DNA from: Candidatus Bathyarchaeota archaeon
GTDB lineage: Archaea > Thermoproteota > Bathyarchaeia > TCS64
Assembly (NCBI GenBank): GCA_018396695.1
Contig: JAGTQU010000002.1
Coordinates: forward strand, 41,007 to 105,006
Length of the DNA: 64,000 nt
Reading direction: 5' to 3'
This document shows positions 15,007 to 35,342 of the stretch, piece by piece. Position 1 is the first letter of the stretch. Every line of letters starts with the position of its first letter. Below the pieces are notes generated by a model that was not told the DNA's origin, ran no database searches, and was given only the letters and a program-made list of their open reading frames with translations. Both the position numbers and the translations under genes were made by a program.

Positions 15007-15493
15007 TTACTCTTTTAAGACGCCTGAGGATTGGATCGCCTTAACTATGAAGTATCCGAAGAAGGCTATAGCGACGATGCTGCTTAAAGTGATGCTGGCT
15101 ATCATCGATCCCCAGACGGGGGGCTGATGGGAAAATCTGGGGGTGGAAAATATATCCAAAGGTACCCGTCAACTACGATGCCTACTAGGAGAGCGCCTAA
15201 TAGACAAGCAATGAATAGACGCCTCCTAAAATAGTAAATAGTTGCCGCGGATATGAGATTAGCTAGAGGCTCTAGAATAACATCTAAAGGACCCAGCCAG
15301 TAGTAGGCGTTGCTTATCAATGCTCCTAGGAGACGCTGAAGACTGCTGGCCAACCAAAGACGGCTGATAAAGGGATCAGGCAATCTGCGATCCTTAACTG
15401 GATCAGTCTGTAAGATATCGGCGCGAAAACGATTACAAGCGCAGCGTATAATGCGCTAATCACAGATAATAGGCTAGTCTGTCTAACTTTCAT
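15007..15493 (-). pseudogene. QueT-like (COG4708) ECF transporter S-component, split by two frameshifts
   Basis: Three reading-frame segments join as MKVRQTSLLSVISALYAALVIVFAPISYRLIQLRIADCLIPLSAVFGWPAVFSVS / LLGALISNAYYWLGPLDVILEPLANLISAATIYYFRRRLFIACLLGALLVGIVVDGYLWIYFPPPDFPIS / PPVWGSMIASITLSSIVAIAFFGYFIVKAIQSSGVLKE; shifts near 15338 and at the C6 run 15118-15123. Confidence 0.8.
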
Positions 15494-15558
15494 ACTCACC
15501 TCACACATCCGGGGTTTCTACAGCGGAACGGTCGGAGGTGGCCCCGCCCACCCGCTTT
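15494..15558 (-). promoter_or_regulatory. candidate structured 5' leader (SD-sequestering switch) of the queT-like gene
   Basis: TATA-like TTAATATAAA at 15581-15590 (minus); leader has AGCGG/CCGCU, CGGGG/CCCCG and CACCUC/GAGGUG(SD) complementarities plus competing GGUGG/CCACC. Confidence 0.45.
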
Positions 15559-15818
15559 AATGAAGCTTATTAAAGAGATCTTTATATTAATTTCCTCTCA
15601 GATCTTGCTTTGAAAACATCGTGTTGTTGAAGGCCTTGGCATATAAGGAATAGCTTAAAACGGTTTCTCTAAACCTTTTTTAAAGTCGGCGTGTCTAAAA
15701 CGGGGTTGAACATCTTAATGGCTTCCAAATCATAGTAGTTGGATTTTGGACCCGGATCGTTCAAATACTCCTTATCGAGTTCTATTTTTATTCTAATTTT
15801 AATGGGGAGGCGGGGACC

Positions 15819-35020: not shown

Positions 35021-35342
35021 GCGCAGCGGAGGCTCCTCAAGGTCGCAGGCTAATCGACCTGCAGCTACGCTTAGCCCTCCTCGAGCCCGTTACACATGAG
35101 CGCTGAACGTCCAGATTTAGGTTGCTCCCTCCCGGGCCTGGCCAGGTTCACCTAGTGAATGCTCCTTCACCTCCCTACAGAGGTGAAGGCCACAACCGCC
35201 AGCCCCATGAGGCAGGCCTTCAACGGATTGCTGAGCGCCTTACAGCCCGCTTCACCAGCTCCCTTGAGGTTGCTGACCCCCTTTATAGCCCGTTAAGGGT
35301 GATAGGGCAGGGCTAGTTCCCCGGTCCTACCCTCCGCTGCAG
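35021..35342 (-). ncRNA. archaeal signal recognition particle (7S) RNA
   Basis: Minus strand carries helix-8 motif GGCCAGGCCCGGGAGGGAGCAACC (35120-35143) and terminal helix GCAGCGGAGG/CCTCCGCTGC (35331-35340 / 35023-35032). Confidence 0.93.

Follow-up and report, generated by a model that had tools for sequence, protein, structure and literature searches.

A conserved pseudoknotted leader before queT, queC and queE genes in archaea is a likely riboswitch for a 7-deazaguanine, most probably preQ0

The leader RNA described here, identified upstream of a queT gene in a Candidatus Bathyarchaeota archaeon, likely represents a new class of archaeal translational riboswitch of the OFF type that senses a 7-deazaguanine, most likely preQ0. 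The conservation of the leader, the covariation of its helices P1 and P3, the position of its promoter and its gene associations are shown by computation. Binding of a ligand by the RNA, the identity of that ligand, the direction of switching and the role of helix P2 are inferred, and no binding data are at hand. The leader meets three general criteria for a riboswitch: it is a conserved, structured 5′ UTR that covaries in distantly related species, it precedes several unrelated genes of one pathway (queT, queC and queE), and its expression platform lies inside the conserved structure (P3 includes the Shine-Dalgarno sequence, SD, and covaries). A first-pass annotation made from sequence alone had proposed that a riboswitch sequestering the SD, either an archaeal analogue or a new class, lies upstream of a QueT-like gene, and this proposal is supported, with ligand binding remaining an inference.

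The window analyzed is a stretch of 64,000 nucleotides (contig JAGTQU010000002.1, positions 41,007 to 105,006), and all coordinates below are numbered within it. The leader lies on the minus strand, where three pairings had been described as interleaved in the order a-b-c-a′-b′-c′; this arrangement held, and all of its coordinates check. The elements are as follows.

15583-15595, minus strand: predicted archaeal promoter, with a BRE-like GGAAA (15591-15595) and a TATA box TTAATATA (15583-15590)
15497-15556, minus strand: whole conserved leader RNA from P1 to the SD, the candidate riboswitch (62.3 bits, E 2e-16 against covariance model R1)
15552-15556, minus strand: P1 5′ strand AGCGG, with compensatory changes at the outer pair (G-C, A-U, C-G, U-A) and the inner pair (G-C, C-G)
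15522-15526, minus strand: P1 3′ strand CCGCU, with the same compensatory changes
15542-15546 and 15510-15514, minus strand: P2 as first drawn, CGGGG with CCCCG, complementarity confirmed
15543-15546, minus strand: candidate P2 5′ strand CGGG, compatible but unproven (first pair U-G, C-G or U-A, no double change)
15510-15513, minus strand: candidate P2 3′ strand CCCG, whose rival partner is the CCG at 15529-15531
15535-15540, minus strand: P3 5′ strand CACCUC (anti-SD), which covaries with the SD strand, five of six pairs changing on both sides
15497-15502, minus strand: P3 3′ strand GAGGUG, the SD, 3 nt 5′ of the ATG, which covaries with the anti-SD
15527-15531, minus strand: CCGUU preceding the P1 3′ strand, within the conserved core (column conservation)
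15515-15521, minus strand: linker from P1 to CCCC, ending in an AAA that is invariant in 139 of 139 leaders
15491-15493, minus strand: queT start codon ATG
15007-15493, minus strand: queT copy, probably a pseudogene, with frameshifts near 15326-15344 and near a C6 run at ~15108-15116

The promoter is predicted from sequence. Across 137 leaders, upstream conservation peaks at an A-rich segment (-38 to -35 relative to P1) followed by a T/A-rich segment (-34 to -28), which is the pattern expected of a BRE/TATA pair in archaeal promoters, and this signal lies ~31 nt 5′ of P1. The usual spacing of archaeal promoters puts the start site a few nucleotides 5′ of P1. From the promoter position and this spacing we infer a transcription start at ~15557-15562, just 5′ of P1. 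A start downstream of 15540, which the first-pass annotation had named as an observation that would refute it, is unlikely because the BRE/TATA position implies a start just 5′ of P1.

Covariation, which had been put forward as the evidence the proposal needed, is present for P1 and P3; P2 remains without proof. In a structure-blind MAFFT alignment of 35 leaders, 93.7% of the cells in the three helices are paired and seven pairs are changed on both sides. None of 500 shuffles was as good as the real alignment, and pairing falls to 48–63% when the partners are slid by 1-3 columns. When each leader's own strands were compared with strands swapped between genomes (139 leaders; the control ignores relatedness), P1 exceeded the swapped pairs by 16.8 sd and P3 by 8.8 sd. 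Among the 139 unique leaders, the four states of the outer P1 pair and the two of the inner pair are all found, and both pairs rank among the top three APC-corrected covarying column pairs. P3 is kept across divergent sequences, such as UUUCCGA/UCGGAAA, GCUCCGU/ACGGAGC, GCCCCC/GGGGGC and UCUCCC/GGGAGA, alongside CACCUC/GAGGUG in the window. On a QueT tree, the outer P1 pair changes state at least 20 times; a sign test for independent compensations is underpowered since only six contrasts are well supported and independent. The tree was used loosely, as some proteins were taken in the wrong frame and form long branches.

P2 is 87% paired without a double change, its 5′ strand is missing in a few leaders, and a rival CCG/CGG pairing fits about as well, so that the choice between the two is undecided. 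P2 as first drawn thus has weak support, and all that can be said is that it may exist and is compatible with the data. The local anti-SD hairpin that had been suggested to free the SD (GGUGG/CCACC) can form in many leaders; without covariation, it is unsupported. Unpaired positions that are invariant or nearly so comprise the GU after P1, the CCG and U before the P1 3′ strand, and the AAA and CCC after it, and they likely mark the core. All 139 leaders have a U immediately 5′ of the P1 3′ strand. Shuffled sequence folds with about the same energy as the window leader (z = -0.12); a single-sequence MFE z-score is uninformative here, as pseudoknots cannot be scored by MFE.

The leader is widespread. 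QueT (PF06177) genes were searched in 61 genomes, related ones among them, and most of those found carry the same leader upstream (consensus GGCGGGUGAGUGGGGCCUCCCACCCGUUCCGCCUUAAAAACCCCGGAGUAGGGAGG) with the start codon close behind. A search with covariance model R1, built with P1 only, detected it in 187 of 257 genomes and 83 of 109 genera of the class Bathyarchaeia, usually once per genome; at the loci examined, true matches scored ≥41 bits and noise ≤14 bits. Among 398 searched genomes of the phylum Thermoproteota, the leader also turns up in families that do not belong to the class; it is present in other Thermoproteota classes and sparse in Asgard archaea, occurring in 5 of 196 genomes from the phylum to which the Asgard locus belongs. 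Scanning GTDB genomes with a DNA pattern gave at least 80 readable loci, from Bathyarchaeota, Methanomethylicota, Nitrososphaerota/Thaumarchaeota, Candidatus Njordarchaeum and the Asgard group. The sole pattern match in a named bacterial species, Catenulispora, was rejected as chance, since the covariance model finds nothing in that genome. The leader also stands before a QueT gene in a record described simply as "bacterium", which is possibly an archaeon under the wrong label. Not every queT gene in the class has a leader. As a separate observation, one sister genus (loci L014, L018 and L019) lacks the leader, and immediately 5′ of its queT there is instead a tRNA-like sequence (GGGTTCAAATCCC... 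arm). Two MAGs from the same FK2 sample (L188 and L346) carry an identical leader-queE-queC sequence, possibly through cross-binning or because they are very close relatives.

The genes behind the leader concern the supply of a single compound. The predicted importer of queuosine precursors, queT, is under preQ1 riboswitches in some bacteria, and archaea use preQ0 for archaeosine (PMC5372724). Among 141 different proteins encoded downstream, 130 match QueT. The first gene after the leader in Bathyarchaeota DYS_6 is queC (PF06508, E=7e-63), with a QueT-like gene behind it. Four Thaumarchaeota/Nitrososphaerota genomes have a radical SAM gene in this position, for which QueE models are the best NCBIfam hits, below their curated cut-offs. 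Two further assignments were made by reading the sequence: a QueC-type gene after the leader and a QueE-type gene in L188, and, in an operon where the leader and a QueE-type gene come first, a glutamine amidotransferase fused to a QueC-like domain (L198:5243-6694), which may be an archaeosine enzyme of the Gat-QueC type. Of the three leaders in one Nitrososphaerota genome, one stands before queT accompanied by a QueC-like gene, another before a QueE-like gene and the third before queE-queC. For at least 49 of 77 QueC genes in the class (E<1e-30), a leader is found no more than 2.6 kb upstream on the same strand, and in most of these cases the gap would accommodate one queT gene. QueE and QueC synthesize preQ0, and queT, queC and queE all concern its supply. 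A leader linked to both the synthesis and the import of one compound is the prediction of a feedback riboswitch, and we consider this reading likely. At four Thaumarchaeota loci (L158:249-983, L212:5807-6541, L241:4942-5676 and L251:6901-7632), the leader precedes a membrane protein of unknown family, 57–71% identical within the set, with no Pfam or NCBIfam match. Profile comparison gave no firm tie of this protein to QueT; it is possible that it is another importer of preQ0-type compounds.

The gene behind the leader in the window is itself probably not functional. The first-pass annotation had implied a working QueT-like gene, and this part is not supported. The gene consists of two PF06177 pieces in different frames, with a third piece found by translation, and glycines conserved in relatives are replaced at five places. 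It is likely a decaying pseudogene, because of the two frameshifts and the lost conserved glycines. Assembly error as the sole cause seems the poorer explanation, though not an excluded one, because the conserved glycines are lost as well. The window leader is intact despite the broken gene behind it. The genome has a second leader, at L001:1406-1470, in an intact leader-queT-queC operon on contig C38, which is likely the functional leader-gene pair. The same genome encodes a tRNA-guanine transglycosylase (TGT), a member of the enzyme family using preQ0 in archaea. Elsewhere in the window, an archaeal signal recognition particle RNA gene is found at 35027-35336 on the minus strand (RF01857, 161.7 bits).

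The leader had been judged unlike the known preQ1 classes, and this held. No Rfam 15 family matches it at gathering thresholds, and at E≤10 the window gave only chance matches, all on other stretches. Membership in preQ1-I (RF00522), preQ1-II (RF01054) or preQ1-III (RF02680) was rejected for want of a covariance-model match at either cut-off. The leader resembles preQ1-II (the COG4708/queT motif) in its position before queT, a pseudoknot helix P3 that occludes the SD, translational control and a 60-nt scale. However, preQ1-II folds as an HLout pseudoknot of four helices, P1-P4, and occurs only in Bacillota (PMC11625349), whereas the leader differs in helix order, core sequence and its archaeal host. 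The likeness, namely queT and SD occlusion by a pseudoknot helix, reflects shared function, not homology. With preQ1-I the leader shares control of the queuosine pathway and, if P2 is real, an H-type P1/P2 topology in which a linker containing A leads into the second strand of the pseudoknot; of these elements P1 covaries, P2 is compatible only and the AAA is invariant. In contrast to the leader, preQ1-I is ~34 nt long with UC or AC before the P1 3′ strand, including the specificity C (PMC11625349); the leader has U-U or C-U there, a loop of 18-30 nt and a third interleaved helix that holds the SD. PreQ1-III also precedes queT and has an anti-SD/SD helix as an extra pseudoknot, but it is ~100 nt long with five helices and is found in Ruminococcaceae and metagenomes (PMC11625349). 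A 2024 review of preQ1 switches lists three classes and does not mention archaea (PMC11625349). We found no earlier description of the leader in the literature searched, which omits most subscription papers and all preprints, and priority is uncertain.

In the mechanism we propose, transcription would start just 5′ of P1 and the ~60-nt 5′ UTR would fold into an interleaved pseudoknot, in which P1 closes a loop and the pyrimidine strand of that loop forms P3 with the SD. The pseudoknot would surround a core made of the invariant nucleotides GU, CCG-U, AAA and CCC, in which P2 may also take part. At high levels, a 7-deazaguanine, for which preQ0 (7-cyano-7-deazaguanine) is the most likely candidate, would bind this core, stabilize the knot and hide the SD, so that the importer gene queT and the synthesis genes queC and queE are translated less. 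At low levels of the ligand, the SD would be freed. In the window this putative switch would sit on the decaying queT copy, with the operon on C38 as the functional pair.

Several points count against a riboswitch: P2 and the SD-freeing alternative fold are without covariation support, a few leaders precede the unknown membrane protein, some queT genes in the class are leaderless and the window's own gene is broken. Among the rival explanations, an RNA-binding protein could sense preQ0 or archaeosine status, stabilize P3 and block the SD without the RNA binding any metabolite. Such a regulator would show the same gene associations and SD pairing, and ligand-binding data are lacking. We regard it as unlikely given that a core of this kind, compact, long, conserved and with unpaired bases that stay invariant in many phylogenetically distant hosts, is typical of aptamers and that the motif is alike in Bathyarchaeia, Methanomethylicota and Asgard archaea, which would need one conserved regulator protein. 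It is also unlikely that these genes are incidentally under a riboswitch for some other ligand, for instance preQ1, queuine, guanine or a different purine. The cargo of archaeal QueT is not known, and bacterial relatives respond to preQ1 (PMC11625349); against this, queE and queC, whose product is preQ0, stand behind the leader, and preQ0 serves archaeosine in archaea (PMC5372724). It is very doubtful that the leader senses tRNA modification status rather than free preQ0, through TGT or ArcS-type enzymes that, for example, bind the leader or modify a G in it. The genes belong to the archaeosine pathway and TGT is in the same genome, but an ARAGORN scan of the window returned nothing resembling a tRNA, and covariation supports a pseudoknot rather than a tRNA arm. 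Neither a protein regulator nor TGT-based sensing can be excluded, and both remain possible. Functionless chance pairing in a GC-rich leader, for which only the unremarkable folding energy of the window leader speaks, is all but excluded by the P1/P3 covariation and the conservation across the phylum.

The preferred reading thus remains a riboswitch for a 7-deazaguanine. A bolder version, towards which we lean by a small margin, is that the leader constitutes a fourth class of riboswitch for 7-deazaguanines, independent in its evolution and, as far as we could find, the first in archaea, recognizing preQ0 through a triply interleaved pseudoknot that includes the SD, with a queT/queC/queE regulon across Bathyarchaeia, Methanomethylicota, Nitrososphaerota and some Asgard archaea. 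Archaea have few known riboswitches. If correct, a phylum-wide archaeal switch for preQ0 supply would show that RNA has solved the same recognition problem independently once more, and its ~60-nt RNA would be well suited to structural work. It would also help to assign the cargo of archaeal QueT proteins and would show how archaea balance the synthesis of preQ0 against its import for archaeosine tRNA modification.
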